Below are positions 16,395 to 29,242 of a stretch of 64,000 bases of DNA, piece after piece (the first letter of the stretch is position 1; every line of letters begins with the position of its first letter). The stretch spans positions 4,695,501 through 4,759,500 of the forward strand of contig NZ_CP029190.1 of assembly GCF_008642295.1 (NCBI RefSeq). Direction: 5' to 3'. The translations under genes were made by a program, and so were the position numbers. Source of the DNA: Streptomyces venezuelae (lineage in GTDB: Bacteria; Actinomycetota; Actinomycetes; Streptomycetales; Streptomycetaceae). The notes under the pieces are model-generated. The model saw nothing but the letters and a program-made list of their open reading frames with translations. It did not search any database and was not told where the DNA came from.

Positions 16395-17210
16395 TCAGGG
16401 GGTGGTTGCGGTTGAGTTGCGGATCTTGCGGATGTTTTCGTTCAGGCCGTGGTCGGCGCCCTGGGCGCGTTCGAGGTCGACCATGGCCGCCGGGCGGTAG
16501 TTGAGGATGTACGCGCGCCGGGCCCGGGCCGTTGTGTTGCCCCGGGAGGAGTGCAGGGTGCCGCCGGCGTGGGCGACGCCGTGGCCGGCCGGGAGGGGGA
16601 CCGGGGTGGCGCCGGGCTCGGTCTCCGAGCAGTCGCATTCGATGTTGCGGCCGTCGCTGGTGGGGCGGTGCGGGCGGAGCGGGAGCTCGTGGGAGCCGCG
16701 GACGTACCACATGCAGCCGTTGTCGACCGTGGCGTCGTCGAGGGCGATCCAGATCGAGACGGCGCGGGTGTCGGGGAGGTCGACCCAGTACGCCATGTCC
16801 TGGTGCCACGGCGTGGCCACGCCGGAGTACGGGTCCTTGTGGATCAGCATGTCGAAGTCGAGGACCGCGTCCTGGCCGATGAGCTCGCGGGCCGTCTCCA
16901 GGGCCCGCCGGTGCAGGGGCATCTCGCGCAGTGCCGGGTGGAGGGCGGACGGCCACATGATCTGGGTGATGTTCTCCCGGCCGCCGTCCCGCCCGCCGAC
17001 ATGGCTGCCGAGGTCGGAGCGCTTGTCGCCGCTTTCGATCGCACCGCTGAGGAACCGGTCGTAGATTTCGCGGTACGTCTCGATCTCGGCCGCAGTGAGA
17101 AGCCGGCCGACCTCTGCGAAACCGTCCTCCTTGAATACGCGTGCCAGATCGTTCCCGGTCTCCGTCGTCACTGCGCTGAACCTGCCCCTCGTGCGAGTGT
17201 GAAACGCCAT
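16395..17210 (-). CDS. Phytanoyl-CoA dioxygenase (PhyH) family Fe/2-oxoglutarate oxygenase
   Basis: 271 aa. The iron site is visible as ATPWHQDMAYW (H136, D138 of the H-x-D pair) with the distal His in GGTLHSSRGN (about H220) and an Arg shortly after. ALDDATVDNGCMWYVRGSH is the typical PhyH core strand. The enzyme should hydroxylate or otherwise oxidise a small molecule using Fe(II), O2 and 2-oxoglutarate. Last gene of the minus-strand operon that starts at 24500, 45 bp behind the LmbU-type regulator, so it is a likely tailoring enzyme for that cluster's product. It lacks an obvious ectoine-hydroxylase context, since no ect genes are nearby. Confidence 0.9.
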   Translation of the reverse strand: MAFHTRTRGRFSAVTTETGNDLARVFKEDGFAEVGRLLTAAEIETYREIYDRFLSGAIESGDKRSDLGSHVGGRDGGRENITQIMWPSALHPALREMPLHRRALETARELIGQDAVLDFDMLIHKDPYSGVATPWHQDMAYWVDLPDTRAVSIWIALDDATVDNGCMWYVRGSHELPLRPHRPTSDGRNIECDCSETEPGATPVPLPAGHGVAHAGGTLHSSRGNTTARARRAYILNYRPAAMVDLERAQGADHGLNENIRKIRNSTATTP

Positions 17211-17255
17211 TTCCCTTTCGAATGCAGCGAACGTAGTGAGAGGGGTTCGGGATGG

Positions 17256-17981
17256 TCAATGGTCTTGGGTCGGGGCCGAGTTGGGGGATGCTCCAGGACC
17301 TGCTGCGGAATCCAGGGCTTCGATGATCCAGTGGGATAAATCCCGGTCGGCGCGCCGGGCCGCGGCTTCCCAGCGGCGGTGGCGTTCCACGGAGACGGGG
17401 AGCCGCAATTCGGTGTCCGCCGGGGAGGTTGGGCCGGAGGGTGCGGAAGCGGCACCTGCCCTGATGCGGCGGCGCAGTTCGTTGCGGGACCAGCCCGCCG
17501 CCCCGGCGCGGTCCAGCCACATGTCCTGGAGGGCCGGCGGCATGGCGGCGACCTCCGCGTGGTGCTGCATGCTCAGGCCCGGCCGGCGGCGGTCCGGCGG
17601 GAACTTCCGGGCGATCCAGGCGTAGTTGCGCAGGGTCTGGTAGTCGAGGGAGGTGCCGTCGATGGCGTGGCGGTAGCGCTCCGGGAAGCGGTCCTGGCCG
17701 TAGACCAGCCAGTCGCCCAGCCACCAGACCGCGGAGTCGGCGGTCGCGGTGAGGGCCTGGCCGATGTTCAGCCAGTCGTCGATGTTCAGCCGGGCGGGGA
17801 GCCGCAGCGAGATCCGGTCCGTACGGGGGGCCGCCGGCGCCCCGCCCCGGGCCGCGCGGCCCGCGGGGGTCCAGGCGGGCGAGGGGCCCCTCTGCGTACT
17901 GCGCGGGACCGGCCCTGCCGCCCCCGCCGCCCCGACCACCCCGGCCGCCCCAACTGCTCTGAGATCAACAGGACTTCGCAT
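17256..17981 (-). CDS. LmbU family transcriptional regulator
   Basis: 241 aa, with AAGGAGG five bases before the ATG. The first 55 residues are Ala/Pro/Gly-rich and low complexity. The core RLPARLNIDDWLNIGQALT, AVWWLGDWLVYGQDRFPERY, TSLDYQTLRNYAWIARKFPP and DRAGAAGWSRNELRRRIR is the LmbU/NovE pattern with its C-terminal helix-turn-helix. LmbU-type proteins are cluster-situated activators of antibiotic operons (lincomycin, novobiocin, hormaomycin). Its presence inside this operon is the best indication that 16.4-24.5 kb makes a specialised metabolite. The C-terminal tail (ELRLPVSVERHRRWEAAARR) resembles a ribbon-helix-like addition. Confidence 0.9.
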   Translation of the reverse strand: MRSPVDLRAVGAAGVVGAAGAAGPVPRSTQRGPSPAWTPAGRAARGGAPAAPRTDRISLRLPARLNIDDWLNIGQALTATADSAVWWLGDWLVYGQDRFPERYRHAIDGTSLDYQTLRNYAWIARKFPPDRRRPGLSMQHHAEVAAMPPALQDMWLDRAGAAGWSRNELRRRIRAGAASAPSGPTSPADTELRLPVSVERHRRWEAAARRADRDLSHWIIEALDSAAGPGASPNSAPTQDH

Positions 17982-18067
17982 TGGCGCCTCCTTGATCGAT
18001 TCGCGTCGATCATGGTGGCCGGATCGTGCCCTGACAAGGTCCAGACCAATGGTTCGTCAGTACCGGC

Positions 18068-19390
18068 TCAGGGGCGGCCCATCGCCCGGTACTCCCAGCC
18101 CGCCGCACGCCACCGCGCCCCGTCGAGCGCATGCCGGGCGTCCACGATCCGCCGCTCGGCGACCTCCGCAGCGAGGTCCCCGGGCGCCAGCTCCGCGTAC
18201 TGCCGCCACTCCGTGAGCAGCAGCACCACCTGGGCGTCCTGCGCCGCCTCCGCCGCCGAATCGGCGCAGTTCAGCATGGGGTACGCCTTGCGTACGCGGT
18301 CGAGGGCGACCGGGTCGTGTACGGACACCACCGCGCCCTGCCGCTCCAGGGCCGCCGCCACGGCGAGCGCGGGCGAGTCCCGGATGTCGTCGGAATCCGG
18401 CTTGAACGCCGCCCCGAGCGCCGCCACCTTGCGTCCGGCGAGGCTGCCCCCGACCAGCTCCCGCGCCAGCTCCACCACCCGCTCCCGGCGGCGCAGATTG
18501 ATCGCGTCCACCTCGCGCAGGAAGCCCAGGGCCGGCCCGGCGCCCAGTTCCTCGGCGCGCGCCCACAGTGCCCGGATGTCCTTCGGCAGGCATCCCCCGC
18601 CGAACCCGAGGCCCGGGCGCAGGAACCGCCCGCCGATCCGCTCGTCGAGGCCGAGCGCCTCAGCCAGTTGGAGGACGTCCGCACCCGCGGATTCACAGAC
18701 CTCCGCCATGGCGTTGATGTACGAGATCTTTGTGGCGAGAAAGGCATTGGCGGCACTCTTGACCAGCTCCGCGGTCGCGAAATCCGTCACCACATAGGGG
18801 ATTTCCCCGCCGAGGGGTTCGTACACCTCGCGGAGAATCCGTTCGGCGCGTGCGCTCCGCACTCCGAGCACAATGCGGTCCGGGCGGAGCGTGTCCGCCA
18901 CCGCAAATCCCTCGCGCAGGAATTCCGGATTCCATGCGAGTTCCGCCCGGGCACCGGCCGGCGCCTGCCGCGTCATACGGGCGGCGAGCCTTTCCGCGGT
19001 GCCCACCGGAACGGTGGACTTCCCGACGACCAGGCAATCCCGTACGAGATGGGGGGCGAGGGAATCCACCGCCGCATCGAGCTGCCCGAGATCGGCCGCC
19101 AGTCCGTCGGGCCGCTGGGGGGTGCCCAGGCACAGGAAATGCACCTCGCCGAACGCCCCGGCCTCCTCATAGGAGGTGGTGAAGCGGAGCCGGCCCGACC
19201 GCACACCGCGGTGCAGCAGATCGCCCAGACCCTGCTCGTGGATGGGGAGTTCGGCCCGGTTGAGGCGGGCGACCTTCTCCGCATCGATGTCGAGGGCGAG
19301 GACCCGGTGGCCCGCCTCCGCCATACAGGCGGCGTGGGTGATGCCGAGGTACCCGCTCCCGATCACCGTCATGCGGTACCGCTTGGGCAT
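18068..19390 (-). CDS. UDP-glucose/GDP-mannose 6-dehydrogenase family
   Basis: 440 aa, full length. NAD-binding motif GSGYLG (residues 11-16), KSTVPVGT (125-131), NPEFLREG (154-161), KSAANAFLATKISYINAMAE (211-230), and the active-site Cys in GFGGGCLPKD (C267). A C-terminal UDP-binding domain is present (AFKPDSDDIRDSPAL). It oxidises the C6 of a nucleotide sugar to a uronic acid using two NAD+. In the operon it sits between the MFS exporter and the LmbU regulator, so it probably supplies a uronic-acid-type sugar for the cluster's product rather than wall polymer. The N-terminal GYLG replaces the more usual GYVG. Confidence 0.93.
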   Translation of the reverse strand: MPKRYRMTVIGSGYLGITHAACMAEAGHRVLALDIDAEKVARLNRAELPIHEQGLGDLLHRGVRSGRLRFTTSYEEAGAFGEVHFLCLGTPQRPDGLAADLGQLDAAVDSLAPHLVRDCLVVGKSTVPVGTAERLAARMTRQAPAGARAELAWNPEFLREGFAVADTLRPDRIVLGVRSARAERILREVYEPLGGEIPYVVTDFATAELVKSAANAFLATKISYINAMAEVCESAGADVLQLAEALGLDERIGGRFLRPGLGFGGGCLPKDIRALWARAEELGAGPALGFLREVDAINLRRRERVVELARELVGGSLAGRKVAALGAAFKPDSDDIRDSPALAVAAALERQGAVVSVHDPVALDRVRKAYPMLNCADSAAEAAQDAQVVLLLTEWRQYAELAPGDLAAEVAERRIVDARHALDGARWRAAGWEYRAMGRP

Positions 19391-19424
19391 GTTCCTGTCC
19401 TTCGGTGGGGTGTGGTGGGGGTGG

Positions 19425-20747
19425 TCATACGGATGCGGCGTCGCGGGCCGCCGCCGCCGGCGCTGCGCGCCGCAGTCGCCGGACCGGGGTCGTGACGATC
19501 AGCGCCGCCGCGCACCCGGTGCTGATCAGGGCCGCGAGCAGCAGCAGTTCACGGATGCCCGCGACCGAGCTGGCCGGGCCGGCGATCACCTGGCCGAGCG
19601 GAACGGCGAGGATCGAGCCCGCGATCTCGTACGCGGAGACCCGGTTGAGCCGGTCCTCGGGGATCTGGGTCTGTACGGTGGTCGCCCACTGCACGCCCCA
19701 GAAGGCCCAGCCGGTGCCGCTCACCGCGTACCCGAGCAGCAGCACCGGCAGCCCGAGGTCCGGGGCGAGGCCGGCGGCCAGCGGCATCATCGGGAACAGG
19801 AACATCGCCACCGCCCCGCCGAACAGCGGTCGCACCGGCCGGATCCGGATGGCGACCAGGCCGCCGATCACGCACCCGGCCCCGAACGCGCCCTCCGCAT
19901 AACCGAACGCGGCGCTCCCGTGCGCCCCGGTGACCGAGGCCGCGCCGAGCGGCACGATCGGGCCCCAGACGAAGACGCCGAGCACCCACCAGATCAGCAC
20001 GACCGCCCACAGCCAGGACCGCGACCGGAACTCGTGCCAGCCGGTCTTCAGGTTCTCCAGGGTGGACGCCGAACGGTCGACCTCGTACGCGCCGAGGCGC
20101 AGTGCGAGCAGGCTCAGCCCGCTGGCCGCGAAGGTGCCCGAGGTGGCCGCGAACGCCCAGGCCGGAGAGGCCGCCGCGACCAGGAGCCCGGCGAGCGCCG
20201 GCCCCGCCATGGTGGAGATGCCCTGAGCCACCCGCAGGACTCCGTTGGCCTTCTGCGGATCGGCGGCGACCTGGGGGACCAGGCCGTTCACCCCCGGCTG
20301 GAACATCGCGGTGGCGAGCCCGCCGAGAGCGGTCACGCCGATCAGGAACCACAGTCCGGGCCGCCCGGTCGCGAAGGCCACGGCCGTCGCGCCGATCAGA
20401 GCGCACCGCACCGCATCCGCCGCGATCATCAGCGGTCGCGGGTGGACCTGGTCCGCCAGTACGCCGCCGAACACCACGAACAGCGCGAACGCCCCCATCC
20501 AGGCACCCAGCGCGTACCCGACGGCACTCACCCCGTACCCGAGCGCCAGCATCGCCACCGAGAGGGCGACGGGCAGCATCGCATCGCCGAGCAGCGAGGC
20601 GATCCGGGCCGTGAAGTAGAGGGTGAAGTTGCGCGTCCACAGCGGCGCAGCGCCCGCGCCCGAGGCAGCGCCCGCGCCCGAGGCCGGGGCGGTGCCCGAG
20701 CCGGTGCCGGAGGCCGCGCCCGAGGCCGGGGCCGGGGAGTCGGTCAT
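19425..20747 (-). CDS. MFS transporter (probable product exporter)
   Basis: 440 aa with about 12 hydrophobic helices, e.g. FTLYFTARIASLLGDAMLPV, GALGAWMGAFALFVVFGG-type and ALGGLATAMFQPGVNGLVPQ. The LADQVHPRPLMI loop matches the MFS motif A position. The pattern is that of the MFS-3/enterobactin-exporter-like group common in actinomycete export. The N-terminus is a Ser/Ala/Gly-rich extension, with a repeated ASGAASG/AGAA element encoded by a short DNA repeat. The ATG begins 1 bp after the stop of the synthetase gene, so it is co-translated. Export or self-resistance for the cluster product is inferred. Confidence 0.9.
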   Translation of the reverse strand: MTDSPAPASGAASGTGSGTAPASGAGAASGAGAAPLWTRNFTLYFTARIASLLGDAMLPVALSVAMLALGYGVSAVGYALGAWMGAFALFVVFGGVLADQVHPRPLMIAADAVRCALIGATAVAFATGRPGLWFLIGVTALGGLATAMFQPGVNGLVPQVAADPQKANGVLRVAQGISTMAGPALAGLLVAAASPAWAFAATSGTFAASGLSLLALRLGAYEVDRSASTLENLKTGWHEFRSRSWLWAVVLIWWVLGVFVWGPIVPLGAASVTGAHGSAAFGYAEGAFGAGCVIGGLVAIRIRPVRPLFGGAVAMFLFPMMPLAAGLAPDLGLPVLLLGYAVSGTGWAFWGVQWATTVQTQIPEDRLNRVSAYEIAGSILAVPLGQVIAGPASSVAGIRELLLLAALISTGCAAALIVTTPVRRLRRAAPAAAARDAASV

Positions 20748-20748
20748 C

Positions 20749-22560
20749 TCAGAGCTCCACCCGGACGCCGTACGTCCGCAGCCAGTCGTCCAGTTGCAGC
20801 GCCGTCTCCAGCACCGCCCGGCCGACCCCCTCCAGGGCCGTCGCCTGCCGCAGGCCCTCCGCCAGCAGCGGCAGCACCGGGCTGTCCCCGGCGCGTACGA
20901 CCGCGGCGAGCCGCTCCCGCAGCACCCGGTCGTAGGCCTCGTCCCGCAGGTTCGGGTAGGGGGTCTTGACCCGCATCGCGACCTGCTCCGGCAGCACGTC
21001 GCGCAGCGCGGCGCGCAGCACGCTCTTCTCCCGGCCGTCGTGGGACTTCATCGACCAGGGGATGTCGAAGGTGTACGCCAGCAGGCGCGGGTCGGCGAAC
21101 GGAACCCGGATGTCCAGGCCGGCGGCCGTGCCCAGCCGGTCGAGCCGGTCGAAGAGCACCCGCGAGTGCCGGGTCAGCGCGAGATAGGTGACCTCCCGGT
21201 GCCGTGCCTCGGCCGGATCGGCGACGGCCGCCCGCGCGTCCACCTCGGCGATCGCATCGCGGTGGCAGTCGTGTTCGTACGCGGCGAGGTCCAGGGTCGC
21301 CAGCAGCCCCGCGTCGAAGACGGCGGCCATGCCGTCGAACCGGGCGCGGCCCTCCTCCACCCACGGGAAGGTGTCGGTGTGCACCCAGCGGTCGAAGCGC
21401 TGCCAGTTGTAGCCGCCGAACACGTCGTCGCCGAGCTCGCCGGAGAGCGCCACGGGAGCGTGCTCGCGGGCGGCCCGGAACAGGCTGAGCAGCGAGGCGT
21501 ACTGGTCGCCCTTGTTGATCGGGACGTCGTACGCGGCCAGCACGTCCGCCCGCAGCCGCGGGTCGAGGAGGTCGAGGCCGGCCAGGGAGATCTCGTGGTG
21601 GTGGGTCCCGGCGTGCCCGGCCATCAGGCGCGCGTACGCATGGTCCTCGTTGCCCGAGGTGCCGTCCGGGTCCTCGGCGTCCTGGTCGTTGACCGCGAGA
21701 CTGCGGACCGGGCCGGTTCCGAGCCCGCTCGCCGTCCGCGCGGCGAGGGCCGTCAGCGAGCTGGAGTCCAGGCCTCCGGACAGCAGCGAGGCGGGCGGCT
21801 CGCCGGCCGGCCCGAACTGCTCCGCGACCACCGTCTCCAGCAGCTCCCGCACGGTGGCGACGGTCTTGTCCAGGCCGTCCGGGTGCTCCCCGGCCCGCAG
21901 TGCCCAGTACCGCCGCTCGCTCGGCCGGTGCCCCCGCCCGACCCGCACCACGCACCCGGGCCGCACCTCGTACATGCCCCGGAACATCGCATGGCCCGGC
22001 ACCCGGGCGATGGAGAGGATGTCGCGGAGCCCGCCGGCGTCCACGGCCGGGGTGAAACCGGGGTGCGCCAGGATCGCCTTCGGCTCCGAGCCGAACAGGA
22101 CGCCGTGCTCCGTCGGCGCGTAGAACAGCGGCTTCACCCCCATCCGGTCGCGGACCAGGAACAGCTCCTCGCGGCGCTCGTCCCAGAGGGCGAAGGCGTA
22201 CGTGCCCTCGATCCGCTCGGCGCACTCCTCGCCCCACTGCTCGTACGCGCGCAGCACCACCTCCGCGTCGGCATCGGACCGGACGTCGCGGCCCAGCGAA
22301 CGCAGCCGGGCGCGCAGCGCCTGCGCATTGCCCAGACGGCCCGCGAAGGTGAGGACGGTGCGGCTGCCCGCGGCATTGCCGGTGGCCAGCGGCTGTACGT
22401 CGGAGGGCGAGGTGCTCCGGTGGCCGAGGGCGGCGTGGGCCGACCGCCAGAGCCCTTCGCCGGCCGGACCGCGCCCGGCGAGTGCCGAGGTCATGACGCC
22501 TATGGGGTCGAGGTTCCCGGAAGTGGGGGAGAAGTCGACCCAGCCGGCTGTCGCTGACAT
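20749..22560 (-). CDS. Asparagine-synthetase-like amidotransferase lacking the glutaminase Cys
   Basis: 603 aa, class II AsnB/beta-lactam-synthetase superfamily. The N-terminal Ntn domain (1-220) keeps AGWVDF, YAFALWDERREELFLVRDR and KPLFYA. Residue 2 is Ser (M-S-A-T-A-G-W-V-D) where AsnB has the catalytic Cys (M-C-G-I-A-G-W-V-D), so glutaminase activity should be lost. The synthetase domain has the PP-loop SGGLDSSSLTAL, the GELGDDVFGGYN segment, and DIRVPFADPRLLAYTFDIPW. Enzymes of this kind adenylate a carboxylate and couple it to an amine or close a lactam. It is the second gene of the LmbU-linked operon and probably forms the key amide bond. AAAGG precedes the ATG. Confidence 0.9.
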   Translation of the reverse strand: MSATAGWVDFSPTSGNLDPIGVMTSALAGRGPAGEGLWRSAHAALGHRSTSPSDVQPLATGNAAGSRTVLTFAGRLGNAQALRARLRSLGRDVRSDADAEVVLRAYEQWGEECAERIEGTYAFALWDERREELFLVRDRMGVKPLFYAPTEHGVLFGSEPKAILAHPGFTPAVDAGGLRDILSIARVPGHAMFRGMYEVRPGCVVRVGRGHRPSERRYWALRAGEHPDGLDKTVATVRELLETVVAEQFGPAGEPPASLLSGGLDSSSLTALAARTASGLGTGPVRSLAVNDQDAEDPDGTSGNEDHAYARLMAGHAGTHHHEISLAGLDLLDPRLRADVLAAYDVPINKGDQYASLLSLFRAAREHAPVALSGELGDDVFGGYNWQRFDRWVHTDTFPWVEEGRARFDGMAAVFDAGLLATLDLAAYEHDCHRDAIAEVDARAAVADPAEARHREVTYLALTRHSRVLFDRLDRLGTAAGLDIRVPFADPRLLAYTFDIPWSMKSHDGREKSVLRAALRDVLPEQVAMRVKTPYPNLRDEAYDRVLRERLAAVVRAGDSPVLPLLAEGLRQATALEGVGRAVLETALQLDDWLRTYGVRVEL

Positions 22561-22595
22561 GCGAGTGAACCTTTCTGCAGGCGGGTTGGGGCTGG

Positions 22596-24500
22596 TCAGG
22601 AGCCGGAGGCAGGGGCAGCGGGAGAGCCGGGGGCGGTCTCGTCGTAGTCGCCGTGGATGTCGCAGGCGTACCACTGGGCGAGCGCCCGCATCGCCTCCAT
22701 GACCGGGGCGGTGGGCCGCCAGCCGAGCTCGCGCTCGATCAGGCCGGTGGCCATGGACCAGCGCGGGGAGAGCGGGACCTGGCTCCACTCCCAGGGGGTG
22801 CGCCGTGAGACATCGGCGAGCAGCCCGGCGAGCTCCACCTCGCCGTGCCGGGCGGACGCCACGTTCAGGACCGGCCGGGCGGGCGGGGCGGCGAGCACGG
22901 CACGGATCGCGTCCGCGAGATCGCGGTGGTCCAGGATCTGGTGCACACCCTGTGGGTCGAGCAGCAGCGGCCGGCGCGTCCAGGCCAGGTCCACCCAGCG
23001 CACACAGGCGGTGGACGCGGGCGCGTGCGGGCCCACCGGGTCGGCGATCCGCAGCACCTGTACGGGGATCCCGGCCGTCTCGCCCCACTCCCGGCAGCGG
23101 CGTTCCTCCTCCCACCAGCCGCGGGCCACGTCGTCCTGCGGGGCGTCGGGGCCCACCGCCTCCTCGGCGAGCTCGCCGGGGGCGCTTCCGCGGTACACCG
23201 CGGCCGATCCCAGGTACACGAACCGCTCCGCCCCGGCGGTACGGGCGGCGTCCAGGGCCGCTGCGAGGCCGGCGCCGTCGCCGCTGCCGAGGTGGACGGC
23301 GGCACGGGCCCGGAGCCCCAGATCGCCGAGGGTTCCCGCCAGCTGCCGGCCGAACCCGCCGTCCCCGCCGGTCACCAGGACCGAGGGGACCGAGGAGCCG
23401 CCGCCGGCCGACCGGGTCCCACCGGCCAGGCCGGACGCATCGGCCCGGCGGCCCTCGTCCATGGCCGCGAGTGCCAGATCCCTGATCACGGGCGCCATCG
23501 CCAGGAGCTCCTCGGCGGTGTGCTCCTCGCACAGCCCGCCGGGACCCAGCGTCTCCATTACGGCAGCAGCGGTCCGCCGGTCGGGCTCCGGCGCCCCGGC
23601 ACCGGCGAGCACCACCCCGAGCGCGTACCCGGTCAGCCACACGGCACGGGCGACCCGCTCGCCGAGCTGCTGCCGGGCCGGGCCGGTCCCCGGGGCCCCG
23701 TACCCCGCGAGGCAGCCGTCCAGGGTTCCGGTCCGGCGCAGCCAGCGCTCGGTCTCCAGGTACTCCCAGCTGCCGGTGTCCGCATCCCGCACGGCACACC
23801 GGGCGTCCCCGTACTGGTAGAACGGCACGACCGCGAACCGGGGGCAGTCACCCGCCCCGGCGTCCTCGGGGGCCGTCCCCTCGAACCAGGTCGCCTGCCG
23901 GAACCCGTGGTAGCTGTTCCCCGCCAGGCTGGGCAGCGCGTCGTGCTGCACCGTGCTCGGCGTACAGAAGCGGACCGGCACCCCGCGCTCGTTCAGGAAC
24001 CGCTGCACGACCACGTCGTACGGCCAGCCGCCGCCGTGCCGCTCCTGGAACTCCCCGTACTCGCGGGCCAGTTCGGCGGGCAGCAGCAGCGCCTGGCACG
24101 GCACGTGCTCCTGCAGGGTGTACGCCCAGCCGGCACCGGTCAGCGCGGCGAGCCGGGCGACCGCTCCGTTACGGGCCTCCCAGCCGCCGTAGAAGGAGAT
24201 CGCCTCCCCGGCGGGCGCGGCGGCTGCCGCCCGCTCGACGTGCTCGTAGAACCCCTCGGCGAGCACCACATCGTCCTGGAGCACCAGGTGGTGCGTGGCG
24301 TCCGGTGCGACACAGCCCCAGGACACCAGTGCGGTGCGCAGCGCCGTCGGCCGCCCGTCCGGGTCCGGGTCGGTGGTCACCAGGATCCGCCCCTGCGGGT
24401 CGGCCTCGGCGAGCCGGCGGGCCTCCTCCATCCGCTTCGGGTGCGCCATCACGGCACCGCTCAGCCTGATCCCTGCCCCATCACGGCCCACGGGTCCCAC
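22596..24500 (-). CDS. Glycosyltransferase-like domain fused to SDR/epimerase-like domain
   Basis: Up to 634 aa. The N-terminal part (to about residue 260) resembles a GT-A glycosyltransferase: IRLSGAVMAHPKR, HHLVLQDDVVLAEGF with a DD metal motif, GWAYTLQEHVPCQALLLP, and STVQHDALPSLAGNSYHG. A helical linker follows. Then comes an extended-SDR domain with VLVTGGDGGFGRQLAG (nucleotide-binding Gly motif), RFVYLGSAAVYRGS and IPVQVLRIADPVGPH. The expected YxxxK catalytic pair is not evident: the position reads RGWWEEERR, so dehydratase or epimerase chemistry is uncertain. GTG 24500 has GGTGGAG close upstream; GTG 24491 or ATG 24449 are alternatives. First gene of the operon. Confidence 0.8.
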   Translation of the reverse strand: MGPVGRDGAGIRLSGAVMAHPKRMEEARRLAEADPQGRILVTTDPDPDGRPTALRTALVSWGCVAPDATHHLVLQDDVVLAEGFYEHVERAAAAAPAGEAISFYGGWEARNGAVARLAALTGAGWAYTLQEHVPCQALLLPAELAREYGEFQERHGGGWPYDVVVQRFLNERGVPVRFCTPSTVQHDALPSLAGNSYHGFRQATWFEGTAPEDAGAGDCPRFAVVPFYQYGDARCAVRDADTGSWEYLETERWLRRTGTLDGCLAGYGAPGTGPARQQLGERVARAVWLTGYALGVVLAGAGAPEPDRRTAAAVMETLGPGGLCEEHTAEELLAMAPVIRDLALAAMDEGRRADASGLAGGTRSAGGGSSVPSVLVTGGDGGFGRQLAGTLGDLGLRARAAVHLGSGDGAGLAAALDAARTAGAERFVYLGSAAVYRGSAPGELAEEAVGPDAPQDDVARGWWEEERRCREWGETAGIPVQVLRIADPVGPHAPASTACVRWVDLAWTRRPLLLDPQGVHQILDHRDLADAIRAVLAAPPARPVLNVASARHGEVELAGLLADVSRRTPWEWSQVPLSPRWSMATGLIERELGWRPTAPVMEAMRALAQWYACDIHGDYDETAPGSPAAPASGS

Positions 24501-24671
24501 GTCTCCACCTCAACACCAACGATCGACACGGCTCTCACCGAGCCCCGGCACCGCTCATGTTGACCATGCCCCCATCCCGCAGCAAGGTCTATACCACCGG
24601 GCCGAGTTGGCCGCGGCGGCTGTCCCGCCGGCGGGACGGTACGCCCACCCCGCATCCCCGAAGGAGCTCGT

Positions 24672-25355
24672 GTGACCACCCTTGCCCCCGCCCCGTTCGC
24701 CGAGGCCGTCTCCCCGGACGGCCTCACCGTCCGCGCCCGCCACCACCACAACCCCTACGGCTACCTGCTGCCGGACTCCGGCCTGGACGCCCTCCTCCTC
24801 GACCTCGGCCTGCGCCGCGCCGCGAGCATCCGGCACCACCACCAGGCCGCTCCCGCCGCCGCGCCCCGCGACCCGTACCCGCGGCCGGCCATGGGATTCG
24901 TCCTGCTCGACCCCACGGCCGACCCCTGGGTCCGGCACGAGGACGCGGTGCTCGGCGCGATCACCATCGGCGACGAGGGCCACCGCTTCCTGCCGAACGC
25001 CGCCGCCAAGGCCGCCGGCCACCGCCGCCTCGGCCGGAACTACGGCGAAGCCGTGCACACCGACCCGCACCTCTGCGGGGACGGCGCCTTCCGCTACGGC
25101 CACTCCGCCGAGGTCCGCGGCCTGATCGTCGGTGCCAGCGGGCAGACCCCCGACCAGGACCTGTACGAAGCGTCGCTGCTCGCCCAGGACTTCATCGCCG
25201 CGCTCGCCGACCGGCACAGCACCTGGGAGAACGCCACCGGCCCCACCGACTGGCTCGCAGCCGACGACAGCCCGGCGCCCGCGACCACCGCCATGACGGC
25301 GTTCTTCGCTGCAACGGCTGCCACCGCGGCTGCCACCGCGCCGGCCCGGGTGTGA
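24672..25355 (+). CDS. Hypothetical protein divergent from the LmbU-linked operon
   Basis: 227 aa from a GTG with AAGGAG five bases upstream. No family recognised. Features are a His cluster (RARHHHNPYGYLLPDSG, then RHHHQAA), a central acidic/His segment (LGAITIGDEGHRFLPN), GDGAFRYGHSAEVRGLIVGAS, and an Ala/Thr-rich C-terminus. There is no clear signal peptide or membrane helix. The His clusters hint at metal binding but no known site can be named. It shares a 171-bp divergent promoter region with the operon's first gene, so it may belong to the same pathway. Confidence 0.7.
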   Translation: MTTLAPAPFAEAVSPDGLTVRARHHHNPYGYLLPDSGLDALLLDLGLRRAASIRHHHQAAPAAAPRDPYPRPAMGFVLLDPTADPWVRHEDAVLGAITIGDEGHRFLPNAAAKAAGHRRLGRNYGEAVHTDPHLCGDGAFRYGHSAEVRGLIVGASGQTPDQDLYEASLLAQDFIAALADRHSTWENATGPTDWLAADDSPAPATTAMTAFFAATAATAAATAPARV

Positions 25356-25478: not shown

Positions 25479-26708
25479 GTGCACCAGTACCCGCAGCGCC
25501 CGCGGCCTGATGACCAGCCGACCCAGGAGTACCCGCAGTACCGGCAGCCGCCGCAGTACGAGCAGGCCCCGCAGTACCAGCAGCAGTACCAGCAGGCCCC
25601 GCAGTACGCCGAGCCGCCCGCCCCGCCCGCACGGCGCTCCCGGAAGCGGGTCTGGATCGGCTCGGCGGTCGTGCTGGCGCTGCTGGCCGGCGGCGGTGTC
25701 GGCTGGGCGTACTGGAAGACCGACTGGTTCGACGGCAACGGCGAGACCGTGAGCTACGGCGTCCCGGCGGGCGGCCAGGGCCAGGGCCAGGGCCAGGGGC
25801 AGGGCAAGGGCAAGGGGGACGGCGGCGCCCCGGCGCCCGGCGGCGACCCCGACGTCTCCCTCCCGACCGGCCCCGCCGCCCAGTTCAAGCAGACCGGCAA
25901 GCTCGACGACGGCACCCGGATATCCAAGACCCGGCTGAAGGGCGCGAAATCCGGGTTCGAGGGCGACGTATGGGTGTGGACGCCCAAGGAATACGACGAC
26001 CCGAAGTACGCCAAGAGCGGGTTCCCGGTGCTCATCGCCCTCCCGGGCGGCAACGGCCATCCCAACAACTACTGGGCCGACCGCAGCCTCGGCCTCCAGA
26101 AGGCGATCAGCGAAGGCGTCAAGGCGGGCACCAGCCTGCCCTTCGTCCTGGTGATGCCGGTCCTCAACCCGGACAGCAAGTACTACTACGACGGCTCCGA
26201 CATACCCGGCCAGGCCAAGATGGGCACCTGGATGGCCGAGGACGTCCCCGCCTTCGCCAAGGCCAACTTCCGTACCTACAAGTCCCGGGACGGCTGGGCG
26301 TTCATGGGCAACTCCTCGGGTGCCTTCGTCGGACTCAAGCAGGTCATGCAGCACCCGGACCGGTTCAAGGCGGTGATCGCCAACGGCGGCGAGATCGTCC
26401 CGGACTCTCCGCTCTGGAAGGGCCACCAGAAGGAGATGGACGCCAACAACCCCGAGAAGCTCGCCCAGAAGCTGATCGACTCCAAGGGGCCCGAGGTGTA
26501 CGTCAACTTCCAGTACGGCACCAAGGAAGGCGGCCGGGCACGGCTGGAGAAGTTCCAGACGCAGTACGGCAAGGGCCCGGTCAAGGTGACCATCCACGAG
26601 ATCAAGGGCGGCGATCACAATGGCTGGGACTACGTCCGCGGGATGAAGGAGAGCGCCCTGGAGAAGACCAGCAAGGTGATGAAGGCGCCGAAGCCGGACG
26701 CGGGGTGA
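25479..26708 (+). CDS. Membrane-anchored alpha/beta-hydrolase (esterase D-like), paralogue 1
   Basis: 409 aa from a GTG with GGAG upstream. The cytoplasmic N-terminus is a Pro/Gln/Tyr-rich repeat (PQYEQAPQYQ type). One transmembrane helix (about 57-77, VWIGSAVVLALLAGGGVGWAY) follows, then a Gly/Gln linker encoded by a short DNA repeat, then an extracytoplasmic esterase domain. Catalytic features: FPVLIALPGGNGHPNNYW (oxyanion region), WAFMGNSSGAFVGL (nucleophile Ser in GNSSG), and GGDHNGWDY (His). The family includes mycolyltransferase- and esterase-like enzymes, so the likely substrate is an envelope or extracellular ester. Its stop overlaps the next gene's GTG by 3 bp. Confidence 0.9.
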   Translation: MHQYPQRPRPDDQPTQEYPQYRQPPQYEQAPQYQQQYQQAPQYAEPPAPPARRSRKRVWIGSAVVLALLAGGGVGWAYWKTDWFDGNGETVSYGVPAGGQGQGQGQGQGKGKGDGGAPAPGGDPDVSLPTGPAAQFKQTGKLDDGTRISKTRLKGAKSGFEGDVWVWTPKEYDDPKYAKSGFPVLIALPGGNGHPNNYWADRSLGLQKAISEGVKAGTSLPFVLVMPVLNPDSKYYYDGSDIPGQAKMGTWMAEDVPAFAKANFRTYKSRDGWAFMGNSSGAFVGLKQVMQHPDRFKAVIANGGEIVPDSPLWKGHQKEMDANNPEKLAQKLIDSKGPEVYVNFQYGTKEGGRARLEKFQTQYGKGPVKVTIHEIKGGDHNGWDYVRGMKESALEKTSKVMKAPKPDAG

Positions 26709-28030: not shown

Positions 28031-29242
28031 GTGCAACAAGACCAGCAGGGCGACGACACCAGCGGCCCCGGCAGCCCGGGCGGCCCCGGCAGCCCCCGCG
28101 GCTCCCGCCGGCCGCGGCGCAGGCGCCTCTTCCTGATCTGCGGTGCGCTCGCGCTCGCCCTCGCCGCCGGGGGCGGCGTCGCCGCGTACCAGTTCGACGT
28201 GTTCAACGACCTGGGCGAGCCCGTCAGCTTCGGCCGGACCGACGGCGCGAAGGACCGGGCCGCGGACGGTTCCGGTGCGACGGCCGCCCCGCGGCCCGGG
28301 ACCCGGCTGCCGACCGGCCCGGCCGCCAAGTTCGTCCGTACCGCCCGGCTCCCCGACGGCACCGAGATCGGCAAGACCACCCTCAAGGGCGCCAAGTCTG
28401 GATTCACCGGAGATGTGTGGGTCTGGGTTCCCAAGGAGTATGACGACCCGGCCTATGCCCGCAGTGCCTTCCCGGTCCTGATCTCCCTGCCCGGCGGCCG
28501 TGGCTACCCGAACAACTACTGGGGGACGGGCCCCGGCCTCGGCCTCCAGCAGGCCGTGACCGACGGCGCCAAGGCCGGCCGGAGCCTGCCCTTCATCCTG
28601 GTCATGCCGGTGATCAATGCGGACACCAAGAACCACTTCGACGGCTCCGACATCCCGGGCCAGCCCAAGATGGGCACCTGGATGGCCGAAGACGTGCCGG
28701 ATTTCGCGAAGGCCAATTTCCGGACATTCACCTCCCGCGACGGCTGGGCCTTCATGGGCTCCTCCTCGGGCGGTTTCGGCGCCCTGAAGCACGTCCTGAA
28801 GCATCCGGACCGCTTCAAGGCGGCCATCGCCAGCGGGGTCGACACGGTCCCCGACTCCCCGCTGTGGAAGGGCGACCGGCGGGCGATGGACGCCGACAAC
28901 CCGGAGAAGCTCGCCCGCCGGCTCATCGAGACCAAGGGCCCCGAGGTCTACATCAACTTCCAGATCGGCACCAAGGAGAGCGGGCGCGCCCAGGCCGAGC
29001 GGTTCATGAAGGAATTCGGCCGGGGCCCCGTGCACACCCGGCTCCAGGTGATCCAGGATGGGGAACACAACGGCAAGTCGTACGTACGGGGTATGAGGGA
29101 GGGGTCACTGGAGTGGATCAGCAAGGTGCTCTTGGCACCCACCCCCGACCCTCTCCCGGACACGGCCCCGAAGACCGGCGCGACGACCGGTCCGACGACC
29201 GGCCCGCAGAAGGCCGCGGAGACCGCCCCCGCCGCCCGATGA
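28031..29242 (+). CDS. Membrane-anchored alpha/beta-hydrolase, paralogue 2
   Basis: 403 aa, a clear tandem paralogue of the gene at 25479. Shared blocks include KSGFTGDVWVWVPKEYDDPAYA, GGRGYPNNYW, the DGSDIPGQ-K-MGTWMAEDVP region, WAFMGSSSGGFGALKH (nucleophile in GSSSG) and GEHNGKSYVRGM (His). The N-terminus is a Gly/Pro/Ser/Arg-rich tail plus one transmembrane helix (LFLICGALALALAAGGGVAAY) without the Gln/Tyr repeat. A Thr-Gly-Pro-rich tail ends the protein. GGAG precedes the GTG. Its stop overlaps the protease ATG by 3 bp. Divergence around the nucleophile (GSSSG vs GNSSG) suggests different substrates. Confidence 0.9.
   Translation: MQQDQQGDDTSGPGSPGGPGSPRGSRRPRRRRLFLICGALALALAAGGGVAAYQFDVFNDLGEPVSFGRTDGAKDRAADGSGATAAPRPGTRLPTGPAAKFVRTARLPDGTEIGKTTLKGAKSGFTGDVWVWVPKEYDDPAYARSAFPVLISLPGGRGYPNNYWGTGPGLGLQQAVTDGAKAGRSLPFILVMPVINADTKNHFDGSDIPGQPKMGTWMAEDVPDFAKANFRTFTSRDGWAFMGSSSGGFGALKHVLKHPDRFKAAIASGVDTVPDSPLWKGDRRAMDADNPEKLARRLIETKGPEVYINFQIGTKESGRAQAERFMKEFGRGPVHTRLQVIQDGEHNGKSYVRGMREGSLEWISKVLLAPTPDPLPDTAPKTGATTGPTTGPQKAAETAPAAR

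Follow-up and report, generated by a model that had tools for sequence, protein, structure and literature searches.

Beta-lactam synthetase contains an inactive glutaminase domain and uses an amine already present on its substrate, and the orthosomycin oxygenase EvdO2 acts on sugars. For the homologue SaHAT of the trichostatin A hydroxyamidotransferase, ATP-dependent activation of a free carboxylate has been reported, and the amidooxygenase partners TsnB6/7 are described in the same report (PMC13418202, in the excerpt available). The core binding site of the lincomycin regulator LmbU was published as CGCCGGCG, and LmbU homologues occur also outside antibiotic clusters (available part of PMC6510168). 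An extended motif at lmbA has been given as TCGCCGGCGA (available part of PMC10763038). Here we compare with these systems a six-gene operon and its divergent neighbor, located in a 64,000-nucleotide stretch of Streptomyces venezuelae DNA (NZ_CP029190.1, positions 4,695,501 to 4,759,500), hereafter called the window, from a genome consisting of one contig of 7.5 Mb.

We lean towards reading this locus as an LmbU-controlled specialized-metabolite operon, belonging to a family with two forms, which makes an oxidized, hexuronate-derived amide. Six co-directional genes on the minus strand encode a fusion of an N-terminal glycosyltransferase (GT) half with a C-terminal short-chain dehydrogenase/reductase (SDR)-like half (22596..24500), an AsnB-like ATP-dependent amide synthetase (20749..22560), a major facilitator superfamily (MFS) exporter (19425..20747), a TuaD/AglM-like UDP-glucose 6-dehydrogenase (18068..19390), an LmbU-family transcriptional regulator (17256..17981), and a PhyH-family Fe(II)/2-oxoglutarate oxygenase (16395..17210). 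From the fusion gene to the PhyH gene, the gaps are 35, 1, 34, 86, and 45 bp. The gene on the opposite side of the promoter (24672..25355, plus strand), the divergent partner of the fusion gene, has no assigned family. All seven genes of the initial annotation, which had described six tightly spaced genes and a divergent one sharing their promoter, were thus found. A 497-residue open reading frame (ORF) at 20744-22237, considered as AsnB, matched no family, and the true AsnB frame is the one at 20749-22560. The initial annotation had also stated that the region lacks a core biosynthetic gene. This holds for nonribosomal peptide synthetases (NRPS), polyketide synthases (PKS), and terpene enzymes, none of which was detected by Pfam in the 20 scanned ORFs of the window and three flanking ORFs, but precursors of ribosomally synthesized and post-translationally modified peptides were not sought. 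The description of a compact, conserved, LmbU-linked operon that combines sugar-acid and amide-forming enzymes with no classical core enzyme therefore stands. A described pathway with this gene set, of which the initial annotation knew none, did not turn up in the openly licensed literature either, which is weak evidence of absence.

A search for the same gene set in other genomes, as the initial annotation had suggested, found it again in six related loci from Streptomyces, Kitasatospora, and Actinokineospora. The full-length fusion is present in 6 of 295 genomes of the same genus, including the window's own, and partial or more distant matches (E 1e-20) occur in a further 25. Exactly the same 6 genomes hold the divergent gene, indicating that it belongs to the system; it is the constant partner of the fusion in the genomes searched. 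Class-wide, 3 of 394 genomes match the fusion at E 1e-60, two of them from the window's genus. We looked at the loci of 11 genomes selected for a full-length fusion (L009 and L041, from the same genome, were counted once; L065 was left out). All 11 have AsnB; PhyH and a sugar-nucleotide 6-dehydrogenase are each found in 10, and the divergent gene in 9. PhyH was not found in L007, which is cut by the contig end, nor was the divergent gene found in L006 and L007. The 15 loci in which the GT relatives are all more distant (L045-L059) yielded no match for AsnB, PhyH, the dehydrogenase, or the divergent gene. Among the matches listed, 43 of the 64 contig sizes of fusion proteins recur among the rows for AsnB or the divergent gene.

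The examined loci fall into two forms, as computed directly from their genes. Form A (the window, L004, L005, L006, L007, L008, and L040) carries a UDP-glucose-type dehydrogenase and an AsnB with a Cys2-to-Ser replacement; form B (L041, L042, L043, and L044) has the other dehydrogenase type and retains Cys2. Dehydrogenase sequence identity is at least 69% among the six form-A loci that have one and at least 82% among the four form-B loci, but 25–32% across the forms. The window's dehydrogenase matches TIGR03026 with 409.7 bits (cut-off 189.8) and bears the active-site motif GFGGGC and an NPEFL motif. Its best solved relative is the UDP-glucose dehydrogenase 4a7p, and the UDP-glucose equivalogs AglM and TuaD match below their cut-offs. 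For two form-B dehydrogenases, the top curated equivalogs are UDP-ManNAc/UDP-GlcNAc 6-dehydrogenase models, all below cut-off, and in the PDB one of them comes closest to a hypothetical UDP-ManNAc dehydrogenase and to Cap5O, followed by CalS8. No match to the window's MFS protein was obtained in the form-B loci, and L041 contains a different MFS gene. LmbU is absent from two of the seven form-A loci and from all four form-B loci. As the core operon is found in loci without it, LmbU is an add-on outside the core.

Amidated uronic acids occur in polysaccharides and wall glycopolymers, and a UDP-glucose dehydrogenase of the TuaD/AglM type would also suit an operon that decorates such a polymer. 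We regard this as improbable. No polymerase, flippase, or ABC exporter was found among the operon genes or the 20 Pfam-scanned ORFs of the window, and the operon provides a single GT half and an MFS exporter. The rarity of the full-length fusion within the genus (6/295) and the cluster regulator of the LmbU family argue in the same direction.

The AsnB-like protein matches PF00733 (5.1e-58), GATase_7, and TIGR01536 (342.3 bits, over cut-off). Its PP-loop contains SGGLDSS, and the motif LLSGGLDSS is intact in 12 of 12 aligned rows. In the six form-A loci with a readable start, however, the protein begins with MSxxAG rather than MCGIAG (the start in L007 was not readable in frame), and the four form-B genomes keep Cys2. 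Despite passing TIGR01536, the window's enzyme and its clade have Ser2 where a glutamine-hydrolyzing asparagine synthase has its N-terminal Cys nucleophile. The 120 best homologues divide into 28 with Ser2 and 92 with Cys2; P0234 is counted as Ser2 solely through an unusual annotated start, and without it the Ser2 set comprises 27. The pocket residues Arg, Glu, and Asp, labeled after E. coli AsnB, are kept in 92, 92, and 92 of the 92 Cys2 proteins, as against 11, 10, and 19 of the 28 Ser2 proteins. The 28 Ser2 proteins form a single clade with a support of 1.0 in a midpoint-rooted FastTree tree. Judging from these sequences, the form-A glutaminase domain is probably inactive, the pattern being one of loss followed by drift. 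P0269, a metagenomic relative, combines Ser2 with an intact pocket Arg, Glu, and Asp and branches as the sister of the 27 remaining Ser2 proteins, as would be expected had Cys2 been lost before the pocket drifted. The earlier label of an AsnB-like synthetase is therefore sound as regards the Asn_synthase domain and the PP-loop, but not the glutaminase, which looks dead in form A.

The best solved relative of the window's AsnB-like protein is the hydroxyamidotransferase 7ylz, which we take to be TsnB9, with 413.6 bits over nearly the full length. This similarity would suit a hydroxamate product as in trichostatin A, a reading to which we give very little credence: many homologues named asparagine synthase score higher (about 553–577 bits; P0282-P0331), Cys2 has been lost, and Pfam and NCBIfam identified no amidooxygenase partner among the operon genes, although TsnB6/7 were not used as queries. 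Beta-lactam synthetase (1jgt) is a related chain with weak similarity (59.9 bits), and no beta-lactam pathway genes were identified in the operon. We use it as a working analogy for an enzyme of this kind and make no claim of family membership.

A simpler chemistry deserves more weight, although we hold it to be possible rather than likely: the form-A enzyme could make a primary uronamide from free ammonia, the dead glutaminase being neutral, so that both forms would yield closely related carboxamides. The fusion, PhyH, and the divergent gene are indeed shared with form B, where Cys2 persists, and in moenomycin biosynthesis MoeH5 alone can account for the carboxamide and the other amides of the galacturonic unit (available part of PMC8778134). 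However, in the loci examined, the loss of Cys2 coincides with the switch of the dehydrogenase family and with a different MFS protein, a pattern more suggestive of a change in substrate than of neutral decay. The operon also differs from the moenomycin system of MoeE5 and MoeH5 in that its SDR half lacks YxxxK and no phosphoglycolipid gene was identified; MoeH5 was not compared at the sequence level. Gougerotin-type (cytosylglucuronic acid) chemistry, the product of which has a glucuronamide, was considered as well and is not claimed, as no aminotransferase domain was detected in the operon proteins and the literature offered no usable comparison.

The fusion protein was annotated initially as a GT/SDR fusion, and both halves found support, with reservations for each. 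The GT half gave no Pfam match, everything at E-values up to 5 being below cut-off, and a profile built from 19 GT-half proteins retrieved nothing credible from the PDB. The label of glycosyltransferase is nevertheless supported by PHROG 854, a glucosyltransferase family (5.1e-11, over residues 1-176 of the query fragment), and by fold matches to phage glycosyltransferases in a viral structure library. The SDR-like half extends over residues ~355-600 of the 617-residue form, where the SDR fold and the Epimerase domain score were found. A Foldseek search of the fusion against the PDB has sugar-nucleotide SDR enzymes among the matches listed, which do not cover the GT half. The catalytic motif YxxxK is absent from the SDR half: close full-length relatives read ...DxxAxxWWxEE..., and the remaining aligned rows have no motif or a gap at this position. 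For the start of the gene, we favor the GTG at 24500, or a position slightly inside, over the ATG at 24449, because the residues LSGAV upstream of MAHP are conserved. Among the distant GT-half relatives, two in tandem adjoin a carbamoyltransferase (L047:8924-12972), and L045 and L046 each contain a pair about 15 kb apart. Between the pair in L045 lie genes for a radical SAM protein, an SDR, and solute-binding/ABC transport. The neighborhoods in L047 and L045 gave no clue to the acceptor.

As for the other proteins, the initial labels of MFS, sugar dehydrogenase, LmbU, and Fe/2OG oxygenase are all backed by Pfam or NCBIfam matches. The MFS protein matches PF07690 (2.1e-22), and the H+ antiporter model TIGR00900 reaches 128 bits, under its cut-off of 319.6. 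The oxygenase matches PF05721 (4.1e-35; 122.4 bits, cut-off 22) and has the iron ligands HxD...H; the aligned relatives share WHQD and the distal His. Its best solved relative is EvdO2 with 92.9 bits, the next reaching 59.9. The predicted model of the divergent gene product resembles GlcG/HbpS-like proteins, of the GlcG/HbpS/PduO-C-like group; the PDB entry 2a2l carries the title DUF336.

The LmbU protein matches NF038070 with 220.9 bits (cut-off 125), starting at residue 56 and leaving a 55-residue N-terminal extension, as in the lincomycin LmbU family. The core CGCCGGCG occurs 21 times in the window against 14.1 expected, and the 8-mer by itself is no evidence. One copy, at 24626-24633, however, lies in the divergent promoter inside the perfect palindrome GTCCCGCCGGCGGGAC (24622..24637), which occurs once in the genome. 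We predict that this palindrome is probably the LmbU operator. The same 16 bp are found in four of the five LmbU-bearing loci, the window included, and in none of the six loci without LmbU (L005, L008, L041-L044). In L004 and L040 they are again part of the divergent promoter, and in L006 they precede LmbU. L007, which has LmbU, contains no site in the 300 bp upstream of the fusion, and only 57 bp precede its LmbU gene. Across 121 genomes, taken as G000 to G120 for the Fisher tests, 10 of 24 LmbU genes have the exact site within 20 kb (9 of 22 when the window's genome is left out) against 0.026 expected, assuming 8.5 Mb per genome (0.025–0.028 for 9 to 8 Mb). The exact site is present in 13 of 19 genomes with LmbU and 5 of 102 others (p = 1.8e-9; 8e-9 without the window's genome), as compared with 4 of 19 and 16 of 102 for the reversed string (p = 0.52). 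A degenerate form, GTCCYGYCGRCRGGAC, occurs in 12 of 23 LmbU loci and is absent from all 24 control loci and all 40 shuffled sets; it was derived from the same LmbU loci, so that this count is not independent, and 2 of the 12 sites lie inside called ORFs. The exact palindrome GTCCCGCCGGCGGGAC is the more independent test.

Several observations weigh against the reading of an LmbU-controlled operon with this operator. The 295 genomes contain 69 copies of the exact site, spread over 42 genomes, against 47 copies in 43 genomes for the reversed control, and a palindrome of this length arises in 35 of 5000 shuffled versions of the intergenic region. Since this bulk frequency is unremarkable, we base the operator claim only on position and linkage. 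For 14 of the 24 LmbU genes, no exact site lies within 20 kb on the same contig, some of these contigs being short, and none occurs in the 19-kb locus around the second LmbU gene of the window's genome. In the form-B genome G019 (L042), an LmbU gene and a single exact site are present outside the locus, separated by 0.93 Mb. The flanks of the extended lmbA motif differ from those of the window's site. Beyond the regulator, the window's dehydrogenase query found no match in the 21.8-kb Kitasatospora aureofaciens locus L006, and the similarity of PhyH to EvdO2, moderate as it is, leaves the substrate unfixed.

The palindrome might instead belong to another regulator, LmbU being linked to it by neighborhood only. 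The LmbU genes with no nearby site point that way, as do 5 of the 18 site-bearing genomes up to G120, which have no LmbU match over the cut-off. We nonetheless think it rather improbable, in view of the published LmbU core inside the palindrome, its absence from all six family loci that lack LmbU, and the linkage across genomes, which the reversed control does not reproduce. The initial annotation had held that LmbU-type regulators otherwise sit in antibiotic clusters. This was too broad, given the published homologues outside such clusters and the family loci lacking LmbU, but the link of LmbU to this operon is stronger than had been claimed because the probable operator sits in the shared promoter.

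For the LmbU-controlled, amide-forming operon that we favor, we infer the following chemical steps, their order, and the binding and activation by LmbU. The dehydrogenase would convert UDP-glucose to UDP-glucuronic acid, and the GT half would transfer a sugar moiety, with this uronic acid as the likeliest candidate, onto an acceptor made by no operon gene. The SDR-like half may serve as a nucleotide- or sugar-nucleotide-binding domain or as a non-classical catalytic domain. The AsnB-like enzyme would adenylate the sugar carboxylate and form an amide from free ammonia or an amine, not from glutamine-derived ammonia. PhyH would oxidize the sugar part, and the MFS protein would export the product, which we infer to be glycosylated and to bear a uronic amide. 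LmbU would act through GTCCCGCCGGCGGGAC on the divergent promoter, controlling both the operon and the divergent gene. More tentatively, form A could represent a class of clusters, free of NRPS and PKS, whose AsnB-like enzyme is permanently off glutamine and couples an activated sugar acid to a small amine or else forms a lactam ring on the sugar, with the 16-bp palindrome GTCCYGYCGRCRGGAC as an LmbU operator usable to find LmbU-controlled clusters elsewhere. Our analysis adds the division of the family into two forms, the glutaminase-dead clade of AsnB, the absence of YxxxK from the SDR half, the constant partnership of the divergent gene in the genomes searched, and the probable LmbU operator. 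If the favored reading is true, it names a pathway, conserved in actinobacteria, which rules based on core enzymes could overlook (we ran no cluster finder), and poses a concrete chemical question, the nitrogen donor of the glutaminase-dead AsnB, for which forms A and B are a natural experiment. The palindrome offers the LmbU family a longer candidate operator than the 8-bp core and the 10-bp extension in the available parts of the published reports. Through its recurrence and the likely regulator switch site, both the product of the operon and its control are open to testing.

The degenerate motif GTCCYGYCGRCRGGAC occurs three times in the window's genome. The other two sites (L127:12812-12827 and L127:15444-15459; genome positions 2604812 and 2607444) lie in an NRPS-like region encoding an AMP-binding/KR/PP-binding protein, a thioesterase, a tryptophan halogenase, and a prolyl-oligopeptidase-like protein. 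The first is inside a called ORF, and the second lies where the halogenase and peptidase genes diverge. LmbU may control both the window operon and this NRPS-like/halogenase cluster, which the palindrome would tie together. The second LmbU gene of the genome (L062; L064:8358-9176; genome position 4914496) lies beside genes for a class-II DAHP synthase and a LuxR-type regulator and two dynamin-like genes; nothing resembling the operator was found in this 19-kb locus. Next to the operon, the window contains two esterase-family genes (25479-26708 and 28031-29242), and related esterase genes are found in L004 about 7 kb past the divergent gene.

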